Assembly (NCBI GenBank): GCA_903918755.1
Contig: CAIXFN010000099.1
Location: 1 to 64,000 of the forward strand
Direction: 5' to 3'
DNA length: 64,000 nt
From: an uncultured Pedosphaera sp.
GTDB taxonomy: Bacteria; Verrucomicrobiota; Verrucomicrobiia; Limisphaerales; Pedosphaeraceae
The stretch's first letter is position 1. Every line of letters begins with the position of its first letter. Shown here in pieces: positions 23,925-58,440 of this stretch. The translations under genes and the position numbers were made by a program. The notes under the pieces were generated by a model. That model saw only the letters and a program-made list of their open reading frames with translations. It ran no database searches and had not been told where the DNA came from.

Positions 23925-24623
23925 ATGGTACCGAAGGATCGCGTGATACCAAGAATTCTGGTGGTGGACGACGAACCCGATGCCGTTGAGTTGATCAAGT
24001 TCAACCTGAAGGCCGCGGGTTTCGACGTGGTGACTGCGGCGGATGGTGATGAAGCTTTGAAAAAAGCCAAGTCGCTCCTGCCTAACCTGATCATCCTGGA
24101 CCTGATGCTACCGGAGGTCGATGGCTTGGAGGTTTGCAAAATCCTCCGGCGCGACGTCAAGGCTTCGGCCATTCCCATCATCATGCTGACCGCGAAGGCG
24201 GGCGAAGTGGACCGCGTTCTGGGCCTGGAGTTGGGGGCGGATGATTATGTCACGAAGCCTTTCAGCCCGCGGGAATTGGTGCTCCGCGTGAAGCGGTTGT
24301 TGCGCGGGCCGGCGGAAAATCCCGAAGCCGACCAGATCACCCTCAAGGAATTGCGCCTGGACATTCCGCGGCATCAGGCTTTTGTGAAGGGTCGGGCCAT
24401 CGAATTGACGGCGACGGAATTCCGGCTTTTGACGGTGCTGGCGCAGCGCCGGGGCCGCGTGCAATCCCGCGAGCGCCTGCTGCACGATGTCTGGGATTAC
24501 GATAATTTGATTGATACACGCACCGTGGACACCCACGTGCGTCGCCTGCGCGAGAAACTGGGGCTGGCAGCCAAATACTTGGACACGGTCCGGGGGGTGG
24601 GATACCGCTTTGTGGAAGAATAG
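23925..24623 (+). CDS. phoB: PhoB-like response regulator
   Basis: This 232-aa OmpR/PhoB-type regulator has a receiver domain with the acidic pair in ILVVDDEPDA (about 11-20), the phospho-acceptor Asp59 in LIILDLMLPEVDG, and the conserved Thr and Lys in IIMLTAKAG and GADDYVTKPFSP. The C-terminal winged helix (about 135-232) contains ELTATEFRLLTVLAQ and DTRTVDTHVRRLREKLG. The start at 23925 is the nearest ATG; GTG at 23946 is an alternative with AAGGA just ahead of it. The PHO-box-like array upstream and the adjacent PhoR-type kinase identify it as the phosphate regulator. Confidence 0.92.
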   Translation: MVPKDRVIPRILVVDDEPDAVELIKFNLKAAGFDVVTAADGDEALKKAKSLLPNLIILDLMLPEVDGLEVCKILRRDVKASAIPIIMLTAKAGEVDRVLGLELGADDYVTKPFSPRELVLRVKRLLRGPAENPEADQITLKELRLDIPRHQAFVKGRAIELTATEFRLLTVLAQRRGRVQSRERLLHDVWDYDNLIDTRTVDTHVRRLREKLGLAAKYLDTVRGVGYRFVEE

Positions 24624-32789: not shown

Positions 32790-33869
32790 TCAAGGCTCCG
32801 CAACAATCTTGGCCCGTTGACTGTGATATTCTTCGGGCGAAATCTTGTCGGCTTTGTAGAGCATCAGCAAATCGGCCAGCCGCTGCTCTTTGGAACCGGG
32901 CACCATCCCCGGAGTAGGAGTCGCGGGTTTGGCGCTGGCCACGCTGGGAGTTCCCTTGTTCGCCTGGGCGGCGGCCTTCGCTGCCGCGGCTTGTTTCGCC
33001 TTGGCTTCCTCCTTGGCTTTGGCATCCGCAGCGGCCTTCGCCGCGGCTTCTTCTTTGGCTTTGGCGGCGGCGATATCTTTGGCCTTGGCGGCTTCGTTGG
33101 CTTTGGCATCCGCCAGGGCTTTGGCCTTGGCATCCGCGGCGGCCTTCACGGCCGCTTCCGCTTTGGCTTTGGCCGCAGCGAGTTCCTTGGCTTTGGCTTC
33201 CTCAGCGGCCTTGACCGCGGCTTCCCTGGCTTTGGCATCCGCCAGAGCTTTGGCCTTGGCTTCCTCCGCGGCCTTGGCAGCGGCTTCCCTGGCTTTGGCA
33301 TCCGCGAGGGCTTTGGCCTTGGCTTCCGCGGCGGCTTTCACCGCAGCTTCTTCTTTGGCTTTGGCGGCGGCAATCTCTTTGGCTTTGGCTTCGGCCGCCT
33401 GCTTGGCTTCGGCCGCCGCTGCGGCATCCGCGGCCATTTTGGCCTTGGCGGCGGCAATTTCCTTGGCCTTGGCTTCGGCTTGCGCGTCCGCCTTGGCTTT
33501 ATCTCCCGGAACGATCAGGACAGGAGCGGATGGCGGCGTCGCAACGACGGCAGCCTTCGGCTGGCGCAGTTGTTTCATCTTCTCGTCGAGAATTGCGGCC
33601 GCCTTGGCTTGTTGTTCCGGCGTCAGGGTGTAAAGGGGCGCGGGGACCGGCGCATTGGGATCGGCCTTGGGGGTAGGCACGCTGGATACCGGGAGCGCCA
33701 TTTTCTGGCGCAAGATCGCCTCCGCTTGCGCCTGCTGTTCGGGTGTCAGGGTGTAAAGCGGGGGGGGGACGGCGGCCGAGGCCGGATTTGAATTCGCCTG
33801 CTGTGCCGGGAGTGAAGCGGCGCCAAGAACCACTACAGAAACAAACAATATAGCCTTCGGTATCTGCAT
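32790..33869 (-). CDS. Exported Ala/Lys/Glu-rich repeat protein
   Basis: This 359-aa protein of no recognised family has a signal peptide (MQIPKAILFVSVVVLGAAS, cleaved near LPAQQ). Two near-identical units with PLYTLTPEQQAQAEAIL and PLYTLTPEQQAKAAAIL follow (about 37-90). About 180 residues are then built from AKAKE, AAAKAK, KALADAKA and AAVKAA blocks, predicted as a long helix or coiled coil. A small C-terminal unit (LADLLMLYKADKISPEEYHS) resembles SHOCT-like short domains. The extreme DNA repetition (GGCTTTGGC-type units) makes copy-number change likely. It may be a structural spacer or envelope-linked protein; function unknown. It starts 53 bp after the squalene/phytoene synthase gene. Confidence 0.75.
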   Translation of the reverse strand: MQIPKAILFVSVVVLGAASLPAQQANSNPASAAVPPPLYTLTPEQQAQAEAILRQKMALPVSSVPTPKADPNAPVPAPLYTLTPEQQAKAAAILDEKMKQLRQPKAAVVATPPSAPVLIVPGDKAKADAQAEAKAKEIAAAKAKMAADAAAAAEAKQAAEAKAKEIAAAKAKEEAAVKAAAEAKAKALADAKAREAAAKAAEEAKAKALADAKAREAAVKAAEEAKAKELAAAKAKAEAAVKAAADAKAKALADAKANEAAKAKDIAAAKAKEEAAAKAAADAKAKEEAKAKQAAAAKAAAQANKGTPSVASAKPATPTPGMVPGSKEQRLADLLMLYKADKISPEEYHSQRAKIVAEP

Positions 33870-33922
33870 GATTTCGATTATTACCGGAAATGTCGGACTG
33901 ACGCAACAGGATTCCCGCAGCG

Positions 33923-34921
33923 TTACGGAAACAATTTTCGCCAGGCGGATGGCCAGCCGTAAACGGCCAGGGAGCGCAGGATCATTCCCTTTACTTCGCC
34001 CCGGCTGACCTTGATACGTTGGGCCGGGTCCAGCACGTTGCCCTTCCGCAATTTGTCCAGGGTTTGCCTGCCCAGTAGGATCGGCCAGGCGCACGGCAGC
34101 CGCACCCGCGCCTGACGCCAGGGCAGGCTGTTGGTATAGGTCCATCCGGCGGCCAGATGTCCCTGCGCCCGGGCGAGCCAATGATCATAGACCGGTTGCA
34201 GCCGGGGCATGACGGCCGGGTCCAGTAAATCAGCCGGAGTAAGTCCGGCCTGGCGGAGCGCCGGCAACGGCAGGTAGCAACGGCCTTGCCGCAAGTCGGC
34301 GGGAATATCCCGCAAGACATTGACCAGTTGCAGACCCTGACCGAACCGGATGCCGTTGCGGCGGAGCGCGGCATCGTCCAGTTTCGCGCGCGGAAAGACA
34401 TGGGCCCGGCAAAGGGTGGTCCAAAACTCGCCCACACAGCCGGCCACCCGGTAAGTATAATCGTCCAACTCCTCGTCGCTGCCGAGGGCGGCGATATTCT
34501 GCCCGCTGGCTCCGGCAAATCGTTGCAGGTCCAGTTCCTGGCCGCTGGTAATAGTCCCGATCACCTCCCGGATGGCCGCCTGATCAAAGGGGGAAAGTCG
34601 GTCCAATTCCCCGATGGCTTCTTCGCAGCGTTCCAGCAGCGTCCGCTCGGCGGGGGTGCCCTGGCGGCCTGCCAATTTCCCCAAATCCAAGGGTGCGGTG
34701 CGCGTACCCAGGATGCGCGCCCGCAGTTCTTGCAAGGCCTTCAACCGCTCCGCCACCGGCAGGATTTCCGTGTCCGCCACCGTGTCCGTCGCCCGGGCCA
34801 GCAGGTAGGCCAGGCCGATCTGGGAGCGCACGGAACCCGGTAACCAGCGCAGCGTCAGGTAGAAGGAACGCGAGACGTCCCGCAACAGGTCGCCAAGAAT
34901 GGGCGGTGCCGGAGGCATCAC
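33923..34921 (-). CDS. Squalene/phytoene synthase family protein
   Basis: This 332-aa isoprenoid synthase would join two prenyl diphosphates head to head. The aspartate-rich motifs are intact: RATDTVADTEI (first DxxxD-type site) and GLQLVNVLRDIPADLRQG (second). SRSFYLTLRWLP at the N-terminus is the usual phosphate-binding region. Similarity in the motifs is greatest to squalene synthases (farnesyl diphosphate farnesyltransferase), but phytoene synthases look alike and no partner genes (hpn, crt, shc) are nearby. The two leading ATGs are equivalent starts. It follows argH by about 30 bp on the same strand. Confidence 0.88.
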   Translation of the reverse strand: MMPPAPPILGDLLRDVSRSFYLTLRWLPGSVRSQIGLAYLLARATDTVADTEILPVAERLKALQELRARILGTRTAPLDLGKLAGRQGTPAERTLLERCEEAIGELDRLSPFDQAAIREVIGTITSGQELDLQRFAGASGQNIAALGSDEELDDYTYRVAGCVGEFWTTLCRAHVFPRAKLDDAALRRNGIRFGQGLQLVNVLRDIPADLRQGRCYLPLPALRQAGLTPADLLDPAVMPRLQPVYDHWLARAQGHLAAGWTYTNSLPWRQARVRLPCAWPILLGRQTLDKLRKGNVLDPAQRIKVSRGEVKGMILRSLAVYGWPSAWRKLFP

Positions 34922-42732: not shown

Positions 42733-43473
42733 ATGCTGAAACTGGGAGTCAATATTGATCACGTCGCGACCTTGCGGGAAGCGCGTTACCGCGGCGTTGC
42801 GGGGGGGGAACCGGATCCCGTGGCGGCGGCGCTGCTGTGTGAGGCCGCCGGCGCCCAAGGCATCACCGCCCACTTGCGGGAAGATCGCCGGCATATTCAG
42901 GACCGGGATGTGCGCGAACTGCGAAAATCCATCCGCACCCGGCTCAATCTGGAGATGGCCCTTGCTCCGGAAATCGTCGCCCTGGCGTTGGAAATAAGAC
43001 CCGCCATTGTTTGCCTCGTTCCCGAGCGGCGCCTGGAGGTCACCACCGAGGGGGGATTGGAAGTCGCCGGCAATCTGGCGACGGTGACCGAAACGCGCCA
43101 AAAGATGAACGACGCGGGAATTGACGTGAGCCTGTTTATCACGCCGGACCCGGTTCAAATTACTGCGGCGGCCCGGTCCGGGGCGCAATTCATTGAATTG
43201 CACACCGGAGCCTACGCCGAGCATTTTGACCAGAAGGACGCGCGCAACCGCGAATTAAACCGCCTGGTCGAAGGCGCCAAACAGGCGCACGACTTGGGCT
43301 TGCGGGTGAATGCGGGCCACGGGCTGAATTATGTGAATTTGCCGGTCCTGCATGTAGTTCCCCACCTGGAAGAATTGAACATCGGCCACAGCCTGATCAG
43401 CCGGTCCATGGTGACCGGACTCGGCACCGCGGTGCGCGAGATGCTGGCGTTGCTGGCCGGCTACCCGGGTTGA
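42733..43473 (+). CDS. pdxJ: Pyridoxine 5'-phosphate synthase
   Basis: This 246-aa TIM-barrel enzyme condenses 1-deoxyxylulose 5-phosphate with 3-amino-2-oxopropyl phosphate to form pyridoxine 5'-phosphate (DXP-dependent vitamin B6 route). It starts [19 protein letters not shown], the conserved PdxJ N-terminus, and contains [40 protein letters not shown] and [17 protein letters not shown]. The start at 42733 is preferred over 42625, which would overlap the upstream gene. The last 134 codons are present again at 55831-56235 with about 91% protein identity by eye. Confidence 0.96.
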
Positions 43474-43595
43474 TTGGCCGGGTGGTGCGGTTCGATTCTG
43501 ACCATGGCCTCACGTAAGTAATTCATAATCAACGACTGGCGTTGAATGGCAAGGGCTGAAAGCCGATCCTCGCCCCAGGCGGAGAAAAGCCCGAA

Positions 43596-43625
43596 ACGAG
43601 GGTTCGATTCCCTTCACCCGCTCCA
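43596..43625 (+). other. 3' fragment of a tRNA-Gly gene (candidate att site)
   Basis: These 30 bases (ACGAGGGTTCGATTCCCTTC followed by ACCCGCTCCA) fit the T-arm, 3' acceptor strand, discriminator T and encoded CCA of a bacterial tRNA-Gly with acceptor GCGGGTG. The 5' partner strand and the D and anticodon arms are not present upstream, so it is only a 3' piece. Such pieces are the usual leftovers of integrase-driven insertion at a tRNA gene. The fragment ends exactly where the AraC gene's stop codon begins, at the left edge of the accessory block. Confidence 0.7.
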
Positions 43626-44462
43626 TTATTTCGGCGCAAATTGCCCGAAGTAGCGTTGTCGGTAGGCGCGCGGAGGGATGCCGATGACCTCGCGAAATTG
43701 GTTGGTGAAGGCGCTCTGATGCGTGAATCCAAACTTGGCTGCAATCTCCGCCATGGTTTGGTCCGTGTTAACCAGTACCTGGATCGCGGCGTGGACGCGC
43801 GATTGAATTATAAATTGCTGCATGGTGATGGCGAACATGCGGAGGAATTGCCGTTGCAACTGGCGTTCCGAAAGCCCTGCTTGGCGGGCAATTTCGGACA
43901 AGTTTAGGTGCTCCCCCAGCCGAGCCTGGATGTAGTCAATGGCTTTGCCGATGGGACCCAATTGCGCCCAAAGGTTTTGGCGCGCGGCAAAGGTCTGCAC
44001 GGTGCCAATCAGACCGACCACCTTGCCCGCGGCATTGCGCAGCGGATATTTGTCGGTAATTAGCCAGTCGCACACGCCGCGCTCGTTGTAATAGACTTCC
44101 ACGATGTTCCGCATCGGTTTCCCCGAACGCACCACCAGGCTGTCATCATGCCGAAACTTGGCGGCCAGCGCCGGCGGCAGGTATTCCTCGGGCAGGCGGC
44201 CGATGATCTCTTCCTCAGATTGAAAGCCCATGCGGGTCACCACGCCGGGACTCAGCGCCATGGTGCGGCTCTCGGAGTCTTTCACGAAATACAGGGCGTC
44301 CGGAAAGCGGTTGAACGGTTCAAGGAACTGTTTGCCGTTAATCTCGGTCTCGAAAAACCGGTCCCGGCGTTGAAAGCGCTCCGCCACCGCAGCGCGTAAT
44401 GAAACCAGCGGTCCGCCGGAGGAGAGGGCCGGTTTCGCATCCAGATTGCGCTTTGACTTCAT
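43626..44462 (-). CDS. AraC-family regulator with PAS-like sensor domain
   Basis: This 278-aa transcription factor has a PAS-like sensor over about residues 45-160 (FPDALYFVKDSESRTMALSP, VCDWLITDKYPLRNAAGKVV) and a C-terminal AraC DNA-binding domain with two helix-turn-helix units (LNLSEIARQAGLSERQLQRQ and MAEIAAKFGFTHQSAFTNQF, then REVIGIPPRAYRQRYF). It is transcribed away from the first DUF1592 operon. The shared 21-nt element lies in the gap between them, so this protein is the natural candidate to control the cluster; that link is inferred. Its stop codon abuts the tRNA-Gly fragment. Confidence 0.9.
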   Translation of the reverse strand: MKSKRNLDAKPALSSGGPLVSLRAAVAERFQRRDRFFETEINGKQFLEPFNRFPDALYFVKDSESRTMALSPGVVTRMGFQSEEEIIGRLPEEYLPPALAAKFRHDDSLVVRSGKPMRNIVEVYYNERGVCDWLITDKYPLRNAAGKVVGLIGTVQTFAARQNLWAQLGPIGKAIDYIQARLGEHLNLSEIARQAGLSERQLQRQFLRMFAITMQQFIIQSRVHAAIQVLVNTDQTMAEIAAKFGFTHQSAFTNQFREVIGIPPRAYRQRYFGQFAPK

Positions 44463-44725: not shown

Positions 44726-47194
44726 ATGAGAAAAAGCCACACGCTGGGCACACGCCTAAATGCCTTTCAGTCTTTGGGCCGCAAGGTAGTCCCCCTGCTG
44801 GCTGCCGCGCTCGCGCTGGCATCCCACGGGCTGTCCGCATCGGCGGCTGAGGCGCGCGCGATCATGCAATATCGCCAGGGCATCCAACCCATCCTCGAAA
44901 GGTATTGTTACGACTGCCACGGGGACGGCGAAACGAAGGGGAAAATCGCGTTTGATGAATTGAAGTCGGACCAGGCGCTCCTGGATCATGATCTTTGGCT
45001 CAAAGTGCTGAAGAATACCCGCGCTGGGCTCATGCCGCCCCCGAAGAAGCATGCGCGCCTGCCCGCCGCCGAGCAGCAAAAGCTCGACCAGTGGATTCTG
45101 TTCTCCGCGTTCGGCGTGGATCCAAAAAGCCTCGATCCCGGTCGCGTCACTATCCGGCGCCTCAACAAAACCGAATACCGGAACACGATCCGCGATCTAA
45201 TGGGCGTGGATTACGATACGGAGGTCGCTTTCCCGGCCGATGATGTTGGCTATGGATTCGACACGATTGGGGAGGTGCAATCCCTTTCGCCGATGCGCCT
45301 GGAGAAATTTCTGGAAGCCGCGCAATACATCGTCAACAAGGCCGTCCCCACCACACCTCGCGCGCTCTCGCTGCAATTCGCCGTGGGCAAAGAATTCCTC
45401 ACCACGGATGGCTCCAAGAGCGGCGATCCGATGACGTTTTACGAGAAACGCGAAGTGACCCGTCGGTTTCACGCCCCGGTGGCGGGTGATTATAAATTCA
45501 GCCTTTACGCGATGGTGGACGGCACGACGCGGCCGGACCCGCAGCGCTGTAGCCTTGCCATCAAGACCGAGGGCAAGGAATTCTTCGAGCACGAGTACGT
45601 TTGGTTCGATTGCGAATTCTACAACGACGAGCGTCTGCTTCACTGGGAGAAGGGCGACCATGACATCACCTTCACGCTCACTCCGTTGGTGCCGGACCTG
45701 AAGCAGACCACCAAAATGGATTACAAGATTCTCACCGTGTCCGTGCAAGGGCCACTCGCGGAGAAGGACTGGGTAAATCCTCCCGGTTACCGCAGTTTCT
45801 TCTCCCGTGACCTGCCACCGGAAACGGCCGCTGAACGACGGCTTTACGCGCGCGAAACGCTCTCCCGCTTTGCCGCCAAAGCGTATCGCCGCCCGGCCGG
45901 AAGCAACGCCGTTGAGCGACTGGTGGATATCGCCGAAAAGACCTACACCGTCCCGGGCAATTCCTTTGAAACGGGGGTCTCCCGCGCGATGGTTGCGGTC
46001 CTGGCCTCGCCGCGTTTCCTGTTCCGGGCCGAAACCACGGAACCGCCGGTCCGCGGCCAGACGTTCGCCAACGTGGATGAGCATGCCCTGGCCTCACGGC
46101 TTTCCTATTTCCTCTGGTCCACCATGCCCGACGACGAGTTGTTCAAACTCGCGAGCGAGAAAAAGCTCCGTAAAAACCTGGATGCCCAGGTGAAACGGAT
46201 GTTTGCCGATCCGCGCGCCCGGGCGCTCATGGAAAACTTTACCGGTCAATGGCTCCAGACGCGGGAAGTGCTTAAGGCTTCGATCAACCGTCCGGAAATC
46301 ATGAAACGGGAGGGTATCGCGACGCGCGAACAGTTGACCTCCAACCAGCGCGAGGCGATGAAACAGGAGGCGGAGGCTTATTTCGATTACGTCGCGCGGG
46401 GCAACCGCAGCGTTCTGGAGTTGGTTTCCAGCGATTACACCTTTCTCAACGAAACCCTGGCCAGGTATTATGGAATGGCCGACATCACCGGTCCGCAGAT
46501 GCGCCAAGTCGCCCTGCCATCCGAGAATCCGCGCGGCGGGGTTTTGACGATGGCCAGTGTGCTCGCAGTGACTTCCGACCCGACCCGCACTTCGCCCGTC
46601 AAGCGCGGCAAATGGATTCTGGAAAACGTTCTCGGCTCCCCCGCGCCGCCGCCGCCGCCCGACGTGCCCGCCCTCGACGAGACGTTAAAAAAATTTCCCG
46701 ACCGCACGCCCACTCAGCGGGAAGCGCTGGCGCGGCATCGCGAAGCGCCGCTCTGCGCTTCATGCCACAACCGCATGGACCCGCTCGGTCTCGCCCTGGA
46801 AAATTTCAACGCCCTCGGTTTATGGCGCACCAATGAACTGGGCCAGGCGGTGGATGCCACCGGTCAATTGCTGTCGGGTGAATCTTTCCAGGATATCCGC
46901 GAATTGAAGCGCGTGCTCGCGACCGGCCATCGCACTGAGTTTTATCGCACGCTCACGGAGAAATTCCTGACTTACGCCATTGGCAGAGGGCTGGAATACT
47001 ACGATGCGCCGACGGTGGACCAAATCGTCGCGCGGCTCGAACGCGAGGAAGGCCGTTTCTCCGCCCTTTTGTTCGGCGTCATTGAATCGGCTCCGTTTCA
47101 GCAGCGGCGAATGAGCGCAACTTCCGCCCACCCCGCAGCCAAAATCGCCCTGGCTCCCATATCCGCCAAAAATCATGAATCCAAATCCAATTAG
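44726..47194 (+). CDS. DUF1592-type multidomain cytochrome protein, copy A
   Basis: This 822-aa exported protein is typical of Planctomycetes and Verrucomicrobia. In order it has a signal region (about 20-42), a cytochrome-c-type heme motif CYDCH (61-65), a DUF1587 block (RVTIRRLNKTEYRNTIRDLM), a carbohydrate-binding-like middle part, DUF1595 (FAAKAYRRPAG), DUF1592 (ASRLSYFLWSTMPDDELF), DUF1588 with a second heme motif CASCH (677-681), and DUF1585 (ESFQDIRELK, FLTYAIGRGLEYYDAPTVDQ). The biochemical role of the family is unknown; the heme sites imply electron transfer, perhaps linked to oxidative breakdown of sugars. Its end overlaps the DUF1552 gene by 20 bp. Confidence 0.93.
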   Translation: MRKSHTLGTRLNAFQSLGRKVVPLLAAALALASHGLSASAAEARAIMQYRQGIQPILERYCYDCHGDGETKGKIAFDELKSDQALLDHDLWLKVLKNTRAGLMPPPKKHARLPAAEQQKLDQWILFSAFGVDPKSLDPGRVTIRRLNKTEYRNTIRDLMGVDYDTEVAFPADDVGYGFDTIGEVQSLSPMRLEKFLEAAQYIVNKAVPTTPRALSLQFAVGKEFLTTDGSKSGDPMTFYEKREVTRRFHAPVAGDYKFSLYAMVDGTTRPDPQRCSLAIKTEGKEFFEHEYVWFDCEFYNDERLLHWEKGDHDITFTLTPLVPDLKQTTKMDYKILTVSVQGPLAEKDWVNPPGYRSFFSRDLPPETAAERRLYARETLSRFAAKAYRRPAGSNAVERLVDIAEKTYTVPGNSFETGVSRAMVAVLASPRFLFRAETTEPPVRGQTFANVDEHALASRLSYFLWSTMPDDELFKLASEKKLRKNLDAQVKRMFADPRARALMENFTGQWLQTREVLKASINRPEIMKREGIATREQLTSNQREAMKQEAEAYFDYVARGNRSVLELVSSDYTFLNETLARYYGMADITGPQMRQVALPSENPRGGVLTMASVLAVTSDPTRTSPVKRGKWILENVLGSPAPPPPPDVPALDETLKKFPDRTPTQREALARHREAPLCASCHNRMDPLGLALENFNALGLWRTNELGQAVDATGQLLSGESFQDIRELKRVLATGHRTEFYRTLTEKFLTYAIGRGLEYYDAPTVDQIVARLEREEGRFSALLFGVIESAPFQQRRMSATSAHPAAKIALAPISAKNHESKSN

Positions 47195-48572
47195 CACCGC
47201 TGCGCGCGCCGGAAGTTTGAACCGCCGCCGCTTTCTGCGCGGCCTGGGCGTCTGCCTCGCGCTGCCCGCAATGGAATCATTTCTGCCGCGCCGCCTCACT
47301 GCCGCAGAGACGGGCGAGGCCTTGCGCGCCACCACGGCGACGGGCGCGCCGTTGCGCACGGCTTTCGTCTATTTCCCCAATGGCGCAATCCCCGGCAGTT
47401 GGACCCCCACCGGACAGGGCAGGGATTATCTCCTGAACAAGACGATGGAGCCGCTCGCCGCCCTCAAGGAAAAAATTCAGGTCCTTGGCGGTTTGAGTGA
47501 TCTCTCCGCCACCACCGGCAACGATGGCGGTGGCGACCACGCCCGCGCCAACGGAACTTTCCTTACCGGCGTGCGCATCAAGAAAACTGGTGGCAACGAT
47601 TTCCACGCCGGCGTCTCCGCTGACCAGGTCATGGCCCAACAGATTGGTTTGATCACACCCTTCCGCTCCCTGGAACTTTCCTGCGACATCGTGCAGAATT
47701 TCGGCGCGTGCGACACGGGCTATTCGTGCGTCTATCAGCACAACCTCGCGTGGAGTTCGCCCACGACCCCGCTGACGCCCGAGGTCAATCCCCGGCAGCT
47801 CTTCGAACGCCTCTTCGGAGCCGGTCCCCGCCGCGAACGCAAACAGAACCTGCTGTTGCGCCAGCAACAGCAGCGCTCGATTTTGGATTACGTTCAGAGT
47901 GACGCGCGCGATTTGGTGAAGGAGCTTACCGGCCGCGATCGCGACAAACTGGACGAATACACCACCAGTGTCCGCGAGATCGAGCAACGCATTCAACACG
48001 CCGAGAAATCCCGCGCCGGCGCGCCCGAGCCGGATGCGGATACCCCCGCCGGTGTGCCGGCGAGTTTCACTGATTATGTGAGGCTGATGTACGACATGCT
48101 ATACGTGGCGTTTCAGACCGACAGCACCCGTGTGGCCACGTTCATGATTTCCGGCGACGGCAGCAACCGCGATTTTGCGGAAATCGGCATCACGGATGGC
48201 CATCACTCACTCTCCCACCACCGCAATAATCCCGAATGGATCAAAAAAGTCGCGGCGATTGATCTCTTTTACGCCAAACAATTCGCGTATTTCCTGAAAA
48301 AAATGGATAACACCAAAGACGTGGATGGGAAATCAATCCTGCATAACTCGATGATCGTCTATGGCAGCGGGAATTCCGACGGCAACCGTCACACGCACGA
48401 CAACCTCCCGATCATCCTCGCGGGCAGCGGTGGCGGAACTCTGAACCCCGGACGTTTCATCAAACATTCCGATGCCCCGATCACCAATCTGTATCTGAGC
48501 CTGATGGATCGCATCGGTGCCAGGAACATCGAGCGCTTCGGCGATTCCACCGGGCGCCTCAACAATGTTTAA
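47175..48572 (+). CDS. DUF1552 (HXXSHH) Tat-exported protein, copy A
   Basis: This 465-aa protein has a twin-arginine signal (NRRRFLRGLGVCLALPAM, arginines at 17-19), so it is folded in the cytoplasm and exported by Tat, which often indicates a bound cofactor. It carries the family's histidine motif HSLSHH at 344-349 and GGDHARANGTFLTG. The enzymatic role is unknown; the alkaline-phosphatase-like or sulfatase-like layout of this group suggests a hydrolase or metal enzyme. The start lies inside the end of the DUF1592 gene (20-bp overlap), so the pair is translationally linked, as is usual for these two families. Confidence 0.93.
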   Translation: MNPNPISTAARAGSLNRRRFLRGLGVCLALPAMESFLPRRLTAAETGEALRATTATGAPLRTAFVYFPNGAIPGSWTPTGQGRDYLLNKTMEPLAALKEKIQVLGGLSDLSATTGNDGGGDHARANGTFLTGVRIKKTGGNDFHAGVSADQVMAQQIGLITPFRSLELSCDIVQNFGACDTGYSCVYQHNLAWSSPTTPLTPEVNPRQLFERLFGAGPRRERKQNLLLRQQQQRSILDYVQSDARDLVKELTGRDRDKLDEYTTSVREIEQRIQHAEKSRAGAPEPDADTPAGVPASFTDYVRLMYDMLYVAFQTDSTRVATFMISGDGSNRDFAEIGITDGHHSLSHHRNNPEWIKKVAAIDLFYAKQFAYFLKKMDNTKDVDGKSILHNSMIVYGSGNSDGNRHTHDNLPIILAGSGGGTLNPGRFIKHSDAPITNLYLSLMDRIGARNIERFGDSTGRLNNV

Positions 48573-48591
48573 GCGAAGCGCCGGTTCAAAT

Positions 48592-48612
48592 AATGTCGTC
48601 GGAGCGCAAGAC
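48592..48612 (+). promoter_or_regulatory. Shared upstream element, copy 2
   Basis: ATGTCGTCGGAGCGCAAGAC (from 48593) differs from the consensus at about three positions. It begins 20 bp after the DUF1552 stop and ends about 70 bp before the hydrolase start. It is the weakest of the four copies. Confidence 0.6.
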
Positions 48613-48680
48613 GTGGACCATTGCCACGATCCGGTTTACGCGTTGCAATCAACCAAACTCAGCCTCTCAGTTGTTCCGCC

Positions 48681-49556
48681 ATGAAAAACTCGCTCAAAGC
48701 AATCCTCCTCCTCCTGTCGTCATTGTTCGCAGCCGTCCTCCCCGCCGCGGAGCCAACCACCATTCTGCTTTGGTCCAACGGTGCTCCTGGTTCCGAGGGG
48801 CGGACTGCCCCGGAAAAAGTTGAGCCGCCGAAGCGGGGTCAGGAATACATCAAAGTATCGAGCATCCATAATCCATCCATCACGGCGTACTTGCCAACCA
48901 AAGACAAAGCCACGGGCGCGGCCGTGATCATTTGTCCCGGTGGTGGCCATTCGTTTTTGGCGATGGACATTGAAGGAGATAATGTGGGGAAGTGGCTGTC
49001 CGAACACGGCATCGCCGGTTTCGCGCTTAAGTACCGTCTCGCCCGGGAAGCGAATTCAACTTACAAAGTTGAAGTTCACGCGCTCCAGGATACGCAGCGG
49101 GCGATCCGGTTGGTGCGCAGTCGCGCGCCGGAGTGGGGTCTGAGCCCAAACCACATTGGCGTGATGGGCTTTTCCGCGGGCGGACAATTAGCCGCGTTGG
49201 CCGCCGCCCGCTACGACGCCGGCCTCACCAACGCCGCGGATGCAATCGATGCCGTCAGTTCCAAACCGGACTTTCAAGCGTTGCTGTACCCGGCCATCCC
49301 ACGCGATCTGGTCTTCACCAAAGAAGCAACGCCTCCTGCGTTCCTCGTCTGTGGCTTTAATGACCGGCAAAACATTTCGGAGGGGCTGCCCAATTTGTAT
49401 CTCCAACTCAAAAAGGCCAACGTACAGACCGAACTTCATGTCTACTCCGACACCGGCCACGGTTTTGGCTTCCGTCCCGCGAGCCAGGCGCCAGTCGCCG
49501 GCTGGCCCGCGCGATTTGCCGAATGGTTGGATCACAGCGGCTTTTTGAAGAATTAG
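48681..49556 (+). CDS. Exported alpha/beta hydrolase (esterase-like)
   Basis: This 291-aa protein has a signal peptide (MKNSLKAILLLLSSLFAAVL, cleaved near PAAE) and an alpha/beta-hydrolase domain: oxyanion region AAVIICPGGGHSFLAMDIEG, nucleophile serine in GVMGFSAGGQLA, acidic region around FLVCGFNDRQ, and the histidine in SDTGHGFGFR. Closest groups are the BD-FAE/xylan-esterase-like hydrolases, which remove acetyl or feruloyl groups from plant polysaccharides. The start at 48681 opens the signal peptide; the in-frame extension upstream was rejected. It follows a copy of the shared regulatory element. Confidence 0.88.
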   Translation: MKNSLKAILLLLSSLFAAVLPAAEPTTILLWSNGAPGSEGRTAPEKVEPPKRGQEYIKVSSIHNPSITAYLPTKDKATGAAVIICPGGGHSFLAMDIEGDNVGKWLSEHGIAGFALKYRLAREANSTYKVEVHALQDTQRAIRLVRSRAPEWGLSPNHIGVMGFSAGGQLAALAAARYDAGLTNAADAIDAVSSKPDFQALLYPAIPRDLVFTKEATPPAFLVCGFNDRQNISEGLPNLYLQLKKANVQTELHVYSDTGHGFGFRPASQAPVAGWPARFAEWLDHSGFLKN

Positions 49557-49670
49557 AAGGCGTTTGCAATGCTAAGTGAAGATTCCTTCGGGAAAGCGGC
49601 GGAAGCACTTCGAGGTAGTGCCAATGCCATTCGGGAACCAATACTTCTTCAATTCGATGCTCATTAAAAA

Positions 49671-49691
49671 ATTGTCGCCGGAGTGCAAGAC
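49671..49691 (+). promoter_or_regulatory. Shared upstream element, copy 3
   Basis: TTGTCGCCGGAGTGCAAGAC (from 49672) is a perfect consensus copy. ATTAAA precedes it, and TGCTAGACT, a possible extended -10, follows GCAAGAC by about 16 bp. It lies about 55 bp before the esterase start. Confidence 0.72.
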
Positions 49692-49745
49692 AAGTTAGGC
49701 CCTGCCTTGCTAGACTTTGATTTCGTACCACAAAACCAAAATCCC

Positions 49746-50843
49746 ATGTCCCCGAAATCAAACATCACCCTCACAGCACTCTGCTTGCTCACGTTCGCAG
49801 GTATGGCGTTTGGTGCTGACGATCCGCCCGCCGCACCCGGTGCTGCCGCTACCCCGACGCCTCCGGCAGCGGGCGCTCCTGCTGGCCGCCGCGGCGGTCC
49901 GCCCGCCGCGCCGATCACGCCTGAGGAACAGGCCCAAATCGCCAAGCTCGCGGACCTCCCGGCCTGGAAAGTCGGTGATGGTGACGGAAATTATTCCGTC
50001 GGGCCCATGTACGCCCCCGCGCCCGAGCAGACCGCCCGCGAAGGAGTGCCCCATGGCAAGGTAATCCAATTCTCGATGGAATCGGCCGGGAGCAAGTTTT
50101 ATCCCGGCACCGGCGATGGGTTCAAACGCGCGGTGTACGTCTATGTTCCCGCGCAATACGTTCCCGGCACTCCGACGCCGTGCATTGTCTCCTGCGACGC
50201 TTACCGCGTGCAGAACAACCAACTCCCCAACATTCTCGACAATCTGATCGCCGACAAGCGCCTCCCCGTAATGATTGCGGTGATGGTCATGCCCGGCGGT
50301 CCCGAACGCAGTGTGGAATACGACACGGTCTCCGGGAAATATGCTGAGTTTGTCGAAGCGGAGGTTTTGCCCCGCGCGGAAAAAGAGGCCGGTGTGACCA
50401 TCACCAAAGATCCCGATGGCCGCATGACGCTGGGCGGCAGTTCGGGTGGGGTGGCCGCCTTCACGATGGCTTGGTTTCACCCGGAGCTTTACCACCGGGT
50501 GCTGTCGTACTCGGGCACGTTCGTCAATTTGCAGCGCAATGCAGAAGTGCCGCACGGCGCGTGGGAATATCATGAGAACTTAATCCCCAAGACTCCGGCC
50601 AAGCCCTTGCGGGTCTGGCTGCACGTTTCTGAGCGGGACAACGGAGCGGCGACCGCTGGCTCAGCGTACCGCAACTGGGTCATTGCCAACCAGCAGATGG
50701 CGATCGTCCTGAAGGACAAGGGCTATCACTATGAGTTCGTTTATGCCAAGGCTGCGGGCCATACGGATGGCAAGGTCATCGCGCAAACCCTTCCCCAGGC
50801 TCTCGCGTGGGTGTGGCAGGGCTACCACTCGGTCACGAAGTAA
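49746..50843 (+). CDS. Exported esterase of the enterochelin-esterase-like group
   Basis: This 365-aa protein has a signal peptide (MSPKSNITLTALCLLTFAGM, cleaved near AFGAD) and a Pro/Ala/Gly-rich linker to about residue 60. The esterase domain shows RAVYVYVPAQYVPGTPTPCI, nucleophile serine in LGGSSGGVAAFTMAW, HPELYHRVLSYSGTFVNL and the histidine in AKAAGHTDG. This fold includes IroE/Fes and feruloyl or acetylxylan esterases; the exported form and the neighbours make polysaccharide de-esterification the best guess. A broken paralogue lies immediately downstream. Confidence 0.88.
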   Translation: MSPKSNITLTALCLLTFAGMAFGADDPPAAPGAAATPTPPAAGAPAGRRGGPPAAPITPEEQAQIAKLADLPAWKVGDGDGNYSVGPMYAPAPEQTAREGVPHGKVIQFSMESAGSKFYPGTGDGFKRAVYVYVPAQYVPGTPTPCIVSCDAYRVQNNQLPNILDNLIADKRLPVMIAVMVMPGGPERSVEYDTVSGKYAEFVEAEVLPRAEKEAGVTITKDPDGRMTLGGSSGGVAAFTMAWFHPELYHRVLSYSGTFVNLQRNAEVPHGAWEYHENLIPKTPAKPLRVWLHVSERDNGAATAGSAYRNWVIANQQMAIVLKDKGYHYEFVYAKAAGHTDGKVIAQTLPQALAWVWQGYHSVTK

Positions 50844-50918
50844 CCCACAATACTTTTGCCCACGGCCCGTGATTTGCTTTTGGGCAGAGGAAATCCAACC
50901 CATTTCTATCGCTGGGAA

Positions 50919-51343
50919 ATGCCAGTGACCATCGCGGCCTTCAGCAATCTCGGACAACCCACCAACCAGCCTGATTTCAGCGCCTCCAATTGGGATGCCA
51001 ACCGCAACCGCCCGGAAGAATATAACACTCTTGATGACCGCCACACTCACGTCATTCCGGACGAATTGCTTCCCGAATTGAAAGAGAGTTACCGCATCGC
51101 CGATGACCCCGATGGCCAGGCCCTGGCCGAGGCCAGGCCCTGGCCGGGGCCAGTTCCGGGGCTATCGCCGCGTTTACGGTCGCGTGGCATCGGCCCGATT
51201 ATTTTCCCAAAGTCATCAGCACCATCGGCGGCTTCACCAACCTGCGGCGCAACGATCCCAGGAACGGTTCGGATTACCCGAACATCATCTCGAAAAGCAA
51301 ACGCAAGCCAATCCGCAGCTTTCTTGAGGACGGCACCAAAATA
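50919..51343 (+). pseudogene. Broken esterase paralogue
   Basis: Frame 1 from 50919 reads MPVTIAAFSNLGQPTNQPDF, RPEEYNTLDDRHTHVIPDEL and [13 protein letters not shown], the middle of an enterochelin-esterase-like protein. It then goes out of frame at a perfect tandem duplication (GGCCAGGCCCTGGCCG repeated at 51114 and 51131, period 17). Removing one copy restores [20 protein letters not shown], the nucleophile region, followed by [15 protein letters not shown] and [11 protein letters not shown]. The N-terminal half and the C-terminal end are missing. It is therefore a decayed relative of the esterase gene upstream, about 75 bp before its first recognisable residue. Confidence 0.88.
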
Positions 51344-51428
51344 GGAGGCGTGACAGGGGTGAGCACAGGGTGGGGGCGAGATCCGGTGTAGGGAGATCGT
51401 CCAGTGCGTGTTGGAAATTGATTAAATT

Positions 51429-51449
51429 TTTGTCGCCAGAGTGCAAGAC
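51429..51449 (+). promoter_or_regulatory. Shared upstream element, copy 4
   Basis: TTGTCGCCAGAGTGCAAGAC (from 51430) is a consensus copy, with ATTAAA just upstream at 51421. TTTAACT follows GCAAGAC by about 16 bp as a possible -10. It lies 39 bp before the first possible start of the second DUF1592 gene. Confidence 0.72.
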
Positions 51450-51488
51450 ATCCTCCTGCCCGTCGTTTAACTTGCTCGCTGACACCTT

Positions 51489-54206
51489 ATGATTGAGCCT
51501 ACCTATCCACGCGCAGAGCGGCAAAACTCCAGCCGCACGAGAGGGCATTGGACCATGTCATTCTTGGCCGCTGGGATCGTCCTTTCGGCGCCAGGTTTTT
51601 CGGCATGCGGCGCGGAAACTTCCGCGACCGCCCAGTTCCGCAAAGAAATTCAGCCCCTGCTCACACAGTATTGTTACGACTGCCACGGCGAAGGTGAAAA
51701 GAAGGGCAAAGTCGCCTTTGATGAGTTGCAGTCCGACGACGCGATTCTCGATCATGATTTGTGGCTCAAGGTCGTTAAGAATGTTCGCGCGGGCCTGATG
51801 CCCCCGAACAAAAAGCCCCGCCCGACGGACACCGAACGGGCGCAGCTCGAACAATGGGTCAAGACCGGTGTCTTCGGCATTGACCCGAAGAATCCCGATC
51901 CCGGCCGCGTTACCGTCCGGCGCTTGAATCGTGTCGAGTACCGCAACACCATCCGTGATTTGCTGGGCATTGATTACGACACGCAGAGCGAGTTTCCGCC
52001 GGACGACACTGGTTACGGTTTCGACGACATCGGCGATGTGCTCTCCGTCTCTCCCATGTTGTTGGAGAAGTATTTGATCGCCGCCAAACAAGTGGTTTCG
52101 GAGGCCGTGCCCGTGGTATCGCGCGCGATGCCGGAAAAAATTATTCCGGGAATTCGTTTCACCGGTTCCGGCACAGGTGGCGGCCGCGGCGCTCGGGGCG
52201 GCGGCAACCCCAACGGCGTCGGTGGGCGCGGAAACCAAATCGTTCCCCTGTCCCTCTCCTTCTATCAGCCAGCGGCGGTTTCCAACGTCTTCAACGTGGA
52301 CATCGCGGGGAGCTACAAGCTCGGGCTTGACCTCGCGGTGAAGGGCGCCTTCGAATTCGATCCTGGCAAATCTCGCGTGGTCATTACCCTGGATGGCAAG
52401 GAATTGCTGAACGAAGAATACGGCTGGCACAACGACAAGGCTTTCCCCAAGGAATATCCGCTAAAATTTGCAACCGGCAGCCACCAGGTCAACGTCACTT
52501 TGGAACCTTTGGTTCCGGTCGAAAACAAAATCAACAGCCTGGATTTCCGCATCGTCTCGCTGGCCGTGCGCGGCCCGTTGGAGGAGAAGCTGTGGACCAA
52601 GCCGAAGAACTACGACAAGTTCTTCACCAAGGACAAACCGCCCAAAGCGGCTTCCGAACGGCGAAAATATGCCCAGGAACTTTTGAGCACGTTTGCGTCG
52701 AATGCCTTTCGTCGGCCCGCCGATTCCCAGACCGTGGATCGCCTCGCGGCGCTGGCGGAGCGGGTTTACGCCCAGCCGGGCGAGACCTTTGAGGCGGGCA
52801 TCGCGCACGCCATGATCGCCGTGCTGGCTTCGCCCCGGTTTATATTTCGGATGGAAGACAATTTGAAAAATTCCGGCTCCGCCGCCTGGGCCTTGGTGGA
52901 TGAATACACGCTCGCCTCCCGGCTCTCCTATTTCCTCTGGTCCAGCATGCCTGACCCGGAGCTGTTGGACCTGGCGGCGAAGGACCAGTTGCGCAAAAAT
53001 CTCCCGGCCCAGGTGAAACGGATGCTTTCTGATTCCCGTTCCGAGTCGCTCGCCCAGAATTTCACCGGCCAATGGCTCGAAGCGCGGGATGTGGAAGCAC
53101 TCGCAATTGACGCGCGCGCGGTGTTCGCCCGCGAGGCTGACCCGCGCGCGCCCGCTGGCGGCCGCAACAGCTCCCCGACCCTGGCCGCGCAAATCAACCC
53201 GATCGCCGGCATTGCTCCGACGAACCAGGGCGGCTTCAACTTCACCAACGCCCTCGCCGCGGCCGGCGGGCGAACGAACCGCGTTAACCAGGGCAACGTC
53301 AACGGGCGCGGCGCTCCGCCCCGAGTGCAATTGGATCAGAACCTCAAGCGCTCGATGCGCGGCGAAACCGAAATGTATTTCTCCAATCTCGTTCACGAGG
53401 ATCGCAACGTCATCGAGTTGATCGAGAGCGATTACACCTTCGTGAACTCCAATCTCGCGAAAGTGTATGGGCTGACGAATCTGGACGTCCGCGGCCCCGA
53501 ACTGCGCAAAGTCTCGCTCCCACCGGACAGTCCCCGGGGCGGAATCCTGACGGAAGGTACCTTGCTCACCGTCACCTCGAATCCCGACCGCACCTCGCCG
53601 GTGAAGCGCGGCCTCTTCATCCTGAACAACATCCTCGGTACGCCGGTCCCGGCGCCGCCGCCCAACGTGCCCGCGCTGGAAGCCACCGAAAAGGATTTCT
53701 TCAAAGATCACCAGCCCACTTTGCGCGAAGCTCTCACGGTGCATCGTGAAAGCCCGTTGTGTTCATCCTGCCACTCCCGCATGGACCCCATCGGCCTGGG
53801 TTTGGAGAACTTCAACGCCCTCGGCGTGTGGCGCGACAAAGAGCGCGGCCAAACCATCGAGACGGCGGGCAAACTCGTCACCGGGGAAACGTTTAACAGC
53901 ATCCAGGAGTTGAAACACATTCTCGCTACCAACCATAAATCCGATTTCTACCGCTGCCTCACGGAGAAGCTGCTCACCTACGCCCTAGGCCGTGGCACGG
54001 AGTATTACGACATCGAAACCGTGGACCAGATCGTCCAGAGGTTGGATCAGGAAAATGGCCGGTTTGGCGCGCTCCTGATGGGTGTCATCGAGTCGTCCCC
54101 GTTCCAAGAGCAGCGAAATCGCGCCAATACCGCCTTTACGGACAGCCGCGAACCATCGGGTTCCGACAAAGCCGCTCAAGTCAGCAAAAACAAGCCCACG
54201 CGATGA
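51489..54206 (+). CDS. DUF1592-type multidomain cytochrome protein, copy B
   Basis: This 905-aa paralogue of copy A has the same order of domains: heme motif CYDCH (62-66), DUF1587 (RVTVRRLNRVEYRNTIRDLL), middle beta domain, DUF1595, DUF1592 (ASRLSYFLWSSMPDPELL), DUF1588 with the second heme motif CSSCH (758-762), and DUF1585 (LLTYALGRGTEYYDIETVDQ). It is longer because of two insertions absent from copy A: a Gly/Arg-rich stretch near 225-255 and an Asn/Gly/Ala-rich stretch near 550-620. ATG at 51489 or 51555 (MSFLAAGIVLSAPGF) may be the true start; the latter opens the signal segment. Its stop overlaps the DUF1552 start by four bases. Confidence 0.93.
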   Translation: MIEPTYPRAERQNSSRTRGHWTMSFLAAGIVLSAPGFSACGAETSATAQFRKEIQPLLTQYCYDCHGEGEKKGKVAFDELQSDDAILDHDLWLKVVKNVRAGLMPPNKKPRPTDTERAQLEQWVKTGVFGIDPKNPDPGRVTVRRLNRVEYRNTIRDLLGIDYDTQSEFPPDDTGYGFDDIGDVLSVSPMLLEKYLIAAKQVVSEAVPVVSRAMPEKIIPGIRFTGSGTGGGRGARGGGNPNGVGGRGNQIVPLSLSFYQPAAVSNVFNVDIAGSYKLGLDLAVKGAFEFDPGKSRVVITLDGKELLNEEYGWHNDKAFPKEYPLKFATGSHQVNVTLEPLVPVENKINSLDFRIVSLAVRGPLEEKLWTKPKNYDKFFTKDKPPKAASERRKYAQELLSTFASNAFRRPADSQTVDRLAALAERVYAQPGETFEAGIAHAMIAVLASPRFIFRMEDNLKNSGSAAWALVDEYTLASRLSYFLWSSMPDPELLDLAAKDQLRKNLPAQVKRMLSDSRSESLAQNFTGQWLEARDVEALAIDARAVFAREADPRAPAGGRNSSPTLAAQINPIAGIAPTNQGGFNFTNALAAAGGRTNRVNQGNVNGRGAPPRVQLDQNLKRSMRGETEMYFSNLVHEDRNVIELIESDYTFVNSNLAKVYGLTNLDVRGPELRKVSLPPDSPRGGILTEGTLLTVTSNPDRTSPVKRGLFILNNILGTPVPAPPPNVPALEATEKDFFKDHQPTLREALTVHRESPLCSSCHSRMDPIGLGLENFNALGVWRDKERGQTIETAGKLVTGETFNSIQELKHILATNHKSDFYRCLTEKLLTYALGRGTEYYDIETVDQIVQRLDQENGRFGALLMGVIESSPFQEQRNRANTAFTDSREPSGSDKAAQVSKNKPTR

Positions 54207-55615
54207 ACACCAACCAAGACCGCAGCTTGAATCCCCATCTCGCCGCTGAACGTCAGGCCGCCGAACGCCGTGCCAGCCTGAGCCGCCGCCGTTTCCTGCG
54301 CGGCCTCGGAGCCTGCATGGCTTTGCCGGCATTTGAATCCTTCCGCCCGCTCCAGCTTTTGGGCGCGCCCGCCGGGGTCGCGTCCGCCAAGGCCGCACCG
54401 GTGCGCATGGCTTTCCTCCAGGTACCCAATGGCATCATCCCCGGCAGTTGGTGGCCGGAAGGCGAGGGCGGCGCCAATTTCATCCTGCCGCCCACGCTGA
54501 AGCCGTTTGCAAAAATCCGCCATGAAATGCAGGTCATCTCCGGCCTGGACGATTTGAGCGCGAACGCTGGCGCCGATGGCGGCGGCGACCACGCCCGCGC
54601 GGGGGCCACGTTCCTCACCGGCGTGCGCATCAAGAAAACTTCCGGGGCGGACATTTACGGCGGTATTTCCATTGACCAGGTCGTCGCCCAAAAGATCGGT
54701 CACCTGACCCGCTTCCCCTCGCTGGAACTCACTTGTGACTCCGTCCGCAAGGCCGGTGATTGCGATTCCGGTTATTCCTGCGCCTACGAATACAACATGG
54801 CCTGGCGTTCCCCGACGCAGCCGGTCACCCCGGAGCCGAATCCCCGCCTCGTTTTCGAGCGGCTGTTCGGGGCGGGCGCGCCTGCGGAACGGGCCGCGAA
54901 CCTCAAGCGGCGCCAGATCGAGCAGCATTCCATCCTTGATTTCGTGATGGAAGATACCAAGGCCGTCGGATCCAAGATGAACGGGCGCGACCGCCAGAAA
55001 CTGGACCAATACCTGACCAGCGTCCGCGAAATCGAGAATCGCATCGAGCGCGCCGAGAAAATGCCCGTGGCCAATCCCGAAATGGATACCCCGCCGGGCA
55101 TCCCCGCCAACTTCGGCGAGCATATCCAGTTGATGTTCGACATGCTGCTGCTGGCTTTCCAGACCGATTCCACCCGCATCGCCACCCTGCTCATGGCCGG
55201 TGAAGGCAGCAACCGCACCTTCGTCGAAGCCGGCATTTCTGAAGGCCACCACAACCTCAGCCATCACCGGAACAACACCGAAACCATCGCCAAGGTCGCC
55301 AGGATTGACCTGTGGTACACGCAGCAATTGGCAAAGTTCCTCGAAAAAATGGAGGCCACCAAGGACGTGGATGGCAACTCGCTCCTCCACAATTCCATGA
55401 TCCTTTACGGCTCCGGCAATGCCGACGGCAACCGCCACACCCATTACAACCTGCCCATCATGGTCGCGGGTTCCGGGCGCGGCGGCCTCAAAACCGGTCG
55501 TTACGTCAAAGTAGATGCGGTACCGCTCACCAACCTCTTCTTGACTATGTCCGACGTTATGGGTGCCCAAGGAGTAGAACGGCATGGGGATTCCACTGGA
55601 CGCTTCACGGGGTGA
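54203..55615 (+). CDS. DUF1552 (HXXSHH) Tat-exported protein, copy B
   Basis: This 470-aa paralogue of copy A has a twin-arginine signal (SRRRFLRGLGACMALPAF, arginines at 28-30), GGDHARAGATFLTGVRIKK and the histidine motif HNLSHH at 350-355. The ATGA overlap with the DUF1592 gene indicates coupled translation. A and B differ mainly in the N-terminus and scattered positions, so the two operons probably arose by an old duplication rather than a recent one. Confidence 0.93.
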   Translation: MNTNQDRSLNPHLAAERQAAERRASLSRRRFLRGLGACMALPAFESFRPLQLLGAPAGVASAKAAPVRMAFLQVPNGIIPGSWWPEGEGGANFILPPTLKPFAKIRHEMQVISGLDDLSANAGADGGGDHARAGATFLTGVRIKKTSGADIYGGISIDQVVAQKIGHLTRFPSLELTCDSVRKAGDCDSGYSCAYEYNMAWRSPTQPVTPEPNPRLVFERLFGAGAPAERAANLKRRQIEQHSILDFVMEDTKAVGSKMNGRDRQKLDQYLTSVREIENRIERAEKMPVANPEMDTPPGIPANFGEHIQLMFDMLLLAFQTDSTRIATLLMAGEGSNRTFVEAGISEGHHNLSHHRNNTETIAKVARIDLWYTQQLAKFLEKMEATKDVDGNSLLHNSMILYGSGNADGNRHTHYNLPIMVAGSGRGGLKTGRYVKVDAVPLTNLFLTMSDVMGAQGVERHGDSTGRFTG

Positions 55616-55639
55616 GGATCCCACGTGGAAGGAAACCCG

Positions 55640-55830
55640 CGACACCCCGAGAAAAGCCTTCGGGCGGTCGGAGATTCATCCGGACACGCTCCACCCGGAA
55701 TTCTCGAAGAGGAAGTGACCGGGGCATCCCGGAAGACTCATCCATCGAGGCGACGCGCGTCCTGCGAGTAAGTCCTTTCGCCGCGTCCCGCCCTTGCAGA
55801 CCCACACAAAGGGCGGGTTGGGCGGGTGGC
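55640..55830. repeat. ~190-bp direct repeat, left copy
   Basis: This runs from CGACACCCCGAGAAAAGCC through GGTCGGAGATTCATC, ACGCTCCACCCGGAAT, GTGACCGGGGCATCC and GCGACGCGCGTC to GGGCGGGTGGCGG. The same blocks in the same order and orientation lie at 58243-58440. It starts 25 bp after the DUF1552 stop and ends exactly where the pdxJ duplicate begins. Confidence 0.88.
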
Positions 55831-56235
55831 GGCAATTTGGTGGCGGTCACGGAAACGCGGAAGAAGATGAATGACGCCGGGATTGACGTGAGCCTGTTTA
55901 TCACGCCGGACCCGGCCCAAATCGCCGCCGCCGCCCAGGTGGGGGCGCAATTCATTGAATTGCACACCGGCGCCTACGCCGAGCATTTTGACCGGAAGGA
56001 CGAACGCAACCGCGAATTAAACCGCCTGGTGGAAGGCGCCAAACAGGCCCACGATCTGGGCTTGCGGGTGAATGCGGGCCACGGGCTGAATTATGTCAAT
56101 TTGCCGGTCCTGCATGTGGTTCCCCACCTGGAAGAACTGAACATCGGTCACAGCCTGATCAGCCGGGCCATGGTGACCGGACTTGGCACCGCGGTGCGCG
56201 AAATGCTGGAGTTGCTGGTCGGTTACCCGGGTTGA
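55831..56235 (+). pseudogene. Duplicate of the 3' half of pdxJ
   Basis: These 405 bases encode residues 113-246 of PdxJ (GNLVAVTETRKKMNDAGI through the C-terminal LVGYPG and stop) with about 12 amino-acid changes relative to the complete gene at 42733. Similarity continues about 25 bp past the stop codon. No frameshift is present, but the 5' half, including the start and the N-terminal active-site residues, is missing and replaced by repeat DNA, so no functional enzyme can be made. It could be a displaced original 3' end or a recombination product. Confidence 0.9.
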
Positions 56236-56566
56236 TTGGCTGGGTGGTATGGTTCGATTTCGCCCCTCGCCTCCAAGTTTAGATGCTTGTGCATCACGGA
56301 GTTACGCCGGGCGGAATGGCCACTGTCAGTGAGACTGTCAGTAAACCGGCGACGCAAATCAGAATTCGCCACAAACTGCGCAGAACTCCGCTGAAACTCG
56401 CCGAAGCTCGCGTTCACAAACGCGCATGAAACCGGAGTGGTTTCTCGATTCAGAGAAATCAGCCATGAAACCGAGATTCATCCTGTTCAAGCGGGCGGGC
56501 GCTTTTGACACACCCCGAGGTTTGGCTCCGCTGACCTTGGTCGCTCTTTGGTTGATACATGTAATA
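56236..56566. other. Gap with no recognised feature
   Basis: After about 25 bp that still resemble the DNA downstream of pdxJ, these bases show only short direct and inverted repeats (for example CGCGTTTGTGAACGCG read on the minus strand, near 56412-56427) and no credible gene. Confidence 0.4.
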
Positions 56567-58109: not shown

Positions 58110-58242
58110 GCTCGACAGCTGAGAAATTATGGCTAGGCCGCCGATTTCAAGAGCGCGGTCAGTTACCCGGTTTTCTTCGAAGCTTCTGGATCTCAAGTTG
58201 TGGGCGCCGGTCCGTCTTCGTTTTCGGTATCAAGGTAACCCT

Positions 58243-58440
58243 CGACACCCTGAGACAAGCCACCCGGGGTCGGAGATTCATCATGACACGCTCCACCCGG
58301 AATGCTCGAAGATGAATTGACCGGGGCATCCTGGAAGATTCATCAATCGCGGCGACGCGCGTCGTACGAGTAAGTCCTTGCGCCGAGTCCCGCCCTTTCC
58401 GACCCACTGAAAGGGCGCGTTGGGCTGGGCGGGTGCGGCG
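58243..58440. repeat. ~190-bp direct repeat, right copy
   Basis: Second copy of the repeat at 55640-55830, same orientation, starting CGACACCCTGAGACAAGCC and ending near GGGCGGGTGCGG. A five-base insertion near the right end (CTGGG) and many substitutions separate the copies, so the duplication is not recent or the copies arrived separately. It ends about 90 bp before the ECF sigma gene. Confidence 0.85.

Follow-up and report, generated by a model that had tools for sequence, protein, structure and literature searches.

The window is a stretch of 64,000 nucleotides, positions 1-64,000 of contig C99, which is 92,872 bases long and belongs to a draft genome of 7.19 Mb in 118 contigs. At positions 43596-43625 of its plus strand lies the sequence ACGAGGGTTCGATTCCCTTCACCCGCTCCA, hereafter fragment A, which begins only 122 bp after a complete pdxJ gene. 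The features of the locus are as follows, the last of them located on C99 beyond the window:

42733-43473, plus strand: pdxJ copy 1, complete, the last gene in conserved order before the insertion; 72-80% identity to PdxJ of the family
43489-43511, plus strand: decayed tRNA-Cys-like 3' end after pdxJ copy 1; 20/23 in our own comparison
43522-43541, plus strand: 20-bp motif with an 18/20 match to the sequence after the tRNA-Gly core of relative G002
43596-43625, plus strand: fragment A, 3' end of tRNA-Gly(CCC), 30/30 to C73:159024-159097; putative att-core scar
43626-44462, minus strand: AraC-family regulator with a PAS domain (Pfam HTH_18, PAS_4)
44726-55615, plus strand: accessory block of two DUF1592/DUF1552 gene pairs, a hydrolase and an esterase
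55629-55826, plus strand: first copy of direct repeat D5, where pdxJ copy 2 is truncated; 86% to 58232-58428
55812-56235, plus strand: pdxJ copy 2, 5'-truncated, open frame; 88.7% identity to the 3' part of copy 1
56251-56275, plus strand: 3' end of tRNA-Cys(GCA), ending in CCA; 23/25 to the genome's own tRNA-Cys at C30
56548-58109, plus strand: AbiEi/AbiEii toxin-antitoxin pair (Pfam PF13338, PF08843)
58232-58428, plus strand: direct repeat D5 copy 2, after the AbiE pair
C99:70086-70110, plus strand: second tRNA-Gly(CCC) 3' end; 24/25, lacking the last 5 nt

The nearest named relatives of this PdxJ come from Verrucomicrobia subdivision 3 / Pedosphaera metagenome genomes. A search of genome contigs returned no close relative of the AraC protein, whose stop codon (TTA on the plus strand) occupies 43626-43628 and abuts fragment A, just as the first-pass annotation had described. 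Genes of the accessory block were assigned with Pfam over 44726-51341, and the second pair (51489-55615) by its similarity to the first.

Sequence comparison showed that fragment A matches the genome's own tRNA-Gly(CCC) at 30/30 positions, covering its final 30 nt from the T-arm to the CCA. Weaker similarity reaches upstream to 43587 (36/39 from there) and ends at that point; the 5' part of the tRNA is absent. The initial description of these bases as T-arm, acceptor strand and CCA without a 5' part was therefore accurate, and the proposed comparison with a complete tRNA-Gly gene gave an identical 3' end. That intact gene lies on the minus strand of another contig (C73:159024-159097), and the draft does not give the order of C73 and C99 along the replicon. 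We rejected the idea of an unrecognised complete tRNA at 43596-43625, as ARAGORN predicted no tRNA in the whole window and within 43-57 kb Rfam reported nothing for tRNA apart from an 18-nt match, below threshold, to the related tmRNA end at fragment A. At 43.6 kb the base composition does not change sharply. A chance resemblance to a conserved T-arm has nothing in its favour beyond the general conservation of that arm, and it is refuted by the 30/30 identity, which includes the acceptor strand and CCA and has an expectation of 0.00 in the window (26-nt pattern from fragment A, up to three mismatches).

A 30-bp exact repeat could also mislead an assembler, and in a draft of 118 contigs with an estimated contamination of 2.55% two contigs might have been wrongly joined at the tRNA sequence. 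Such a join is quite improbable here: on one side fragment A is missing the tRNA 5' half and on the other the flank of the tRNA gene, and an assembly error would not explain the two other, inexact tRNA fragments in the same interval.

We then compared the locus with those of relatives. In the genome of the window, 27.66 kb of other DNA separates the end of pdxJ (43473) from the start of miaE (C99:71130), which ispD follows. The corresponding gap measures 830-2621 bp in five family genomes from three genera (G002, G004, G005, G006 and G007) and holds acpS, a cupin gene or a hypothetical gene. miaE is followed by ispD in G002, G004, G006 and G007, while the G005 contig stops within miaE. The DNA of the 27.66-kb insertion, whose absence from relatives is one of the marks used in Islander-type searches for tRNA islands, is missing from the same place in 5/5 of these genomes. 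The genus relative G001, read from two contigs that overlap at pdxJ, has the order pdxJ-cupin-rsmH with miaE on another contig; as this order differs, G001 cannot stand in for the site immediately before insertion. The search for strains without the block, proposed in the first-pass annotation, is answered at family level by the five genomes, but none of the relatives compared has the site as it was just before the insertion. For acpS, a neighbour of pdxJ in several relatives, the window's own genome yielded no match at E ≤ 0.001, and for the cupin gene it yielded only matches of 30-37%. The ancestral neighbours of pdxJ thus seem to have been lost or replaced, and cannot be used to place the old junction.

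The accessory genes had been proposed to start directly at fragment A, which is doubtful, as the geometry discussed below would put AraC on the host side. In its entirety, the insertion occupies the interval between the end of pdxJ (43473) and miaE (C99:71130).

A scan of C99 with 49 of the genome's own tRNA sequences detected three 3' ends, all on the plus strand, all inside the insertion and spanning 26.5 kb: fragment A, the tRNA-Cys(GCA) end and the second tRNA-Gly(CCC) end. The scan also gave an internal tRNA match (18/19) at 24003. Three shuffled C99 sequences yielded no tRNA 3' ends. In 372 kb of other sequence from the same genome, picked around tRNA genes rather than at random, we found one isolated 3' end with the tRNA-array contig set aside, and no tRNA 3' fragments were found in the scanned pdxJ loci of the relatives. 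The isolated end comprises 17 exact nucleotides of tRNA-Leu(TAG) at C81:30932-30948 (L116:5933-5949), on the same strand as the intact gene and 2.2 kb downstream of it, and looks like an ordinary displaced fragment. The array contig, C19 (L113, 6855 bases), carries six divergent tRNA genes and further tRNA-like stretches and is perhaps a phage or plasmid tRNA array. Elsewhere in the genome, C14:96799-97270 (L124:6800-7270) contains a tRNA-like sequence of 75 nt with a terminal CCA, repeated in tandem in five near-identical copies (period 99 bp); the Rfam tRNA model scores it at 40.9 bits and ARAGORN does not call it. To the right of the second tRNA-Gly fragment, C99:70183-70878 (L080:6183-6878) encodes a MazE/AbrB-like antitoxin followed by an apparently broken toxin frame.

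The two same-strand tRNA-Gly copies (24/25 over 25 bp) lie near both ends of the insertion. This arrangement might reflect one island of about 26.5 kb, bounded by the fragments at 43596 and C99:70086, that used an orphan tRNA-Gly fragment as its attachment site on entry and received the pdxJ copy and AbiE later. We consider this unlikely, given that the right copy lacks its last 5 nt, that no integrase is present, and that the internal tRNA-Cys ends and the pdxJ copy require further events.

Both pdxJ copies are followed, 15 bp past the stop codon, by a tRNA-Cys-like 3' end, with 20/23 matches after copy 1 and 23/25 after copy 2. The end after copy 1 aligns with the better preserved one after copy 2, and on its own falls below the threshold of the tRNA scan. 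Differences between the two pdxJ copies are mostly silent, with a dN/dS of about 0.15, so the truncated pdxJ probably stayed functional during most of the time over which it diverged, perhaps in another lineage. Its truncation point falls inside copy 1 of the 198-bp repeat D5, of which no further copies occur in the own-genome sequence examined. Another repetitive region of the window, at 32938-33501 within a minus-strand ORF (32790-34181), is Ala/Lys-rich and has many imperfect copies of short units.

The full and the 5'-truncated pdxJ flank 43.5-55.8 kb as direct repeats. Homologous recombination at pdxJ, either by a single crossover of a circle or by transfer from a related strain, could have produced such an arrangement, with fragment A merely carried along, and the dN/dS of 0.15, which suggests that the truncated copy was long a working gene, agrees with this. 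It is a possible explanation, though not the one we favour: it accounts for the left 12 kb at most and not for the tRNA-Gly copy at 70086, and the coincidence of the truncation point with D5 points to another rearrangement.

Tyrosine integrases typically target tRNA genes, and once an element has integrated, its far end carries a displaced fragment of the gene (PMC4383910; PMC9897764). Consistent with Islander-type islands, fragment A reaches the 3' end of an own-genome tRNA gene, CCA included (30/30), and lies outside any full tRNA gene and conserved coding domain, just beyond the AraC gene. No tyrosine integrase was found within the island or anywhere on C99 (PF00589 has ten matches genome-wide), and C99 has no complete tRNA-Gly either, so the search for an integrase nearby, also suggested in the first-pass annotation, came back empty.

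The same sequence does occur beside integrase genes elsewhere. The 30-mer was found in at least 120 viral-contig stretches, and 70 of the 121 viral matches listed show no 5' acceptor motif such as a complete gene would have, an approximate split obtained with a simple motif test. In the isolated Mesorhizobium phage vB_MseS-P1 (PP232116), the 30-mer lies 80 bp from a tyrosine-integrase gene. Within the family, the tRNA-Gly core of G002 (C37) adjoins an integrase gene, whose closest counterpart in the window's genome shares only 25% identity with it. A pattern scan for viral relatives of this integrase returned none, although a 52% relative is encoded on one viral contig (L180), at 113 bp from the core. 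The 20-bp motif at 43522-43541 that resembles the DNA following the G002 core has its best place in C99 here (score 14, against a maximum of 13 across 15 shuffles); as a possible trace of a lost element it is suggestive only. In two further relatives, displaced tRNA-Gly 3' copies lie 1.2 kb (G004, C89, L086:2306-3592) and 2.7 kb (G007, C78, L087:9174-11934) from an intact tRNA-Gly(CCC), with no integrase seen between the intact gene and the displaced end; judged from sequence, these would be very small or decayed elements. The view of fragment A as the mark of an integrase insertion is thus largely right in its general idea, supported by the identical end of the complete tRNA-Gly gene, by the integrase genes next to the 30-mer elsewhere and by the absence of the insertion in relatives, but no integrase accompanies it on C99.

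Taken together, we favour the reading, with a probability of about 0.7, that fragment A is an att core displaced from its tRNA-Gly(CCC) target by a mobile element, and one scar in a decayed composite insertion between pdxJ and miaE-ispD. The tyrosine integrase of the element would have recombined in the T-arm/acceptor part of tRNA-Gly(CCC), leaving the scar. In the standard geometry, an element lies to the left of its 3' fragment, which forms the element's far end; given the direction of the tRNA, the lost element would therefore have been to the left of fragment A and not on the AraC side. Old chromosome would lie to the right of the fragment, which puts AraC on the host side of that event, barring later rearrangement. 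Since only 122 bp separate pdxJ from fragment A, the element itself is presumably gone. Fragment A may have been parted from its tRNA gene by rearrangement, or may have come in with DNA in which the element was already integrated.

Two more tRNA fragments and a truncated pdxJ in the same insertion make a single simple event insufficient. The pdxJ-miaE locus is thus not a simple tRNA island and is best read, from its sequence features, as a decayed composite of several insertions, in which repeated insertion and recombination after pdxJ may have followed one another in an order that can only be proposed. A more specific version, in which the gap after pdxJ is a relay hotspot, with tRNA 3' fragments stranded at a distance from tRNA genes (first Cys, then Gly) themselves serving as attachment sites for elements whose usual targets are tRNA genes and letting islands accumulate at a protein-gene locus, is rather doubtful.

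Even with the integrase and the target gene gone, a solitary tRNA end can reveal an old insertion locus, and searches that need both an integrase and the target tRNA gene would miss such a locus. With different tRNA ends clustered at one pdxJ-miaE locus, repeated insertion at orphan attachment cores can be put to the test on a small scale.

Features of this kind are well known; it is slightly unusual to see so many tRNA ends at a single protein-gene locus with no tRNA gene or integrase on the contig. As in the tDNA islands of Islander (PMC4383910), the inserted DNA ends at a fragment of a tRNA 3' end, whereas here the contig has neither an intact tRNA nor an integrase and carries several fragments from two tRNAs. 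Fragment A also resembles the attR tRNA gene fragments left by mobile elements (PMC9897764) in being a partial 3' tRNA sequence and no gene, although it is unpaired with its complete gene. The att region of vB_MseS-P1 (PP232116) contains exactly the 30-mer of fragment A near a tyrosine-integrase gene, in that case in an intact phage of an unrelated host. Relative G002 (C37), where the integrase is present, shares the same tRNA-Gly core, and an 18/20 match to its post-core motif lies near fragment A.
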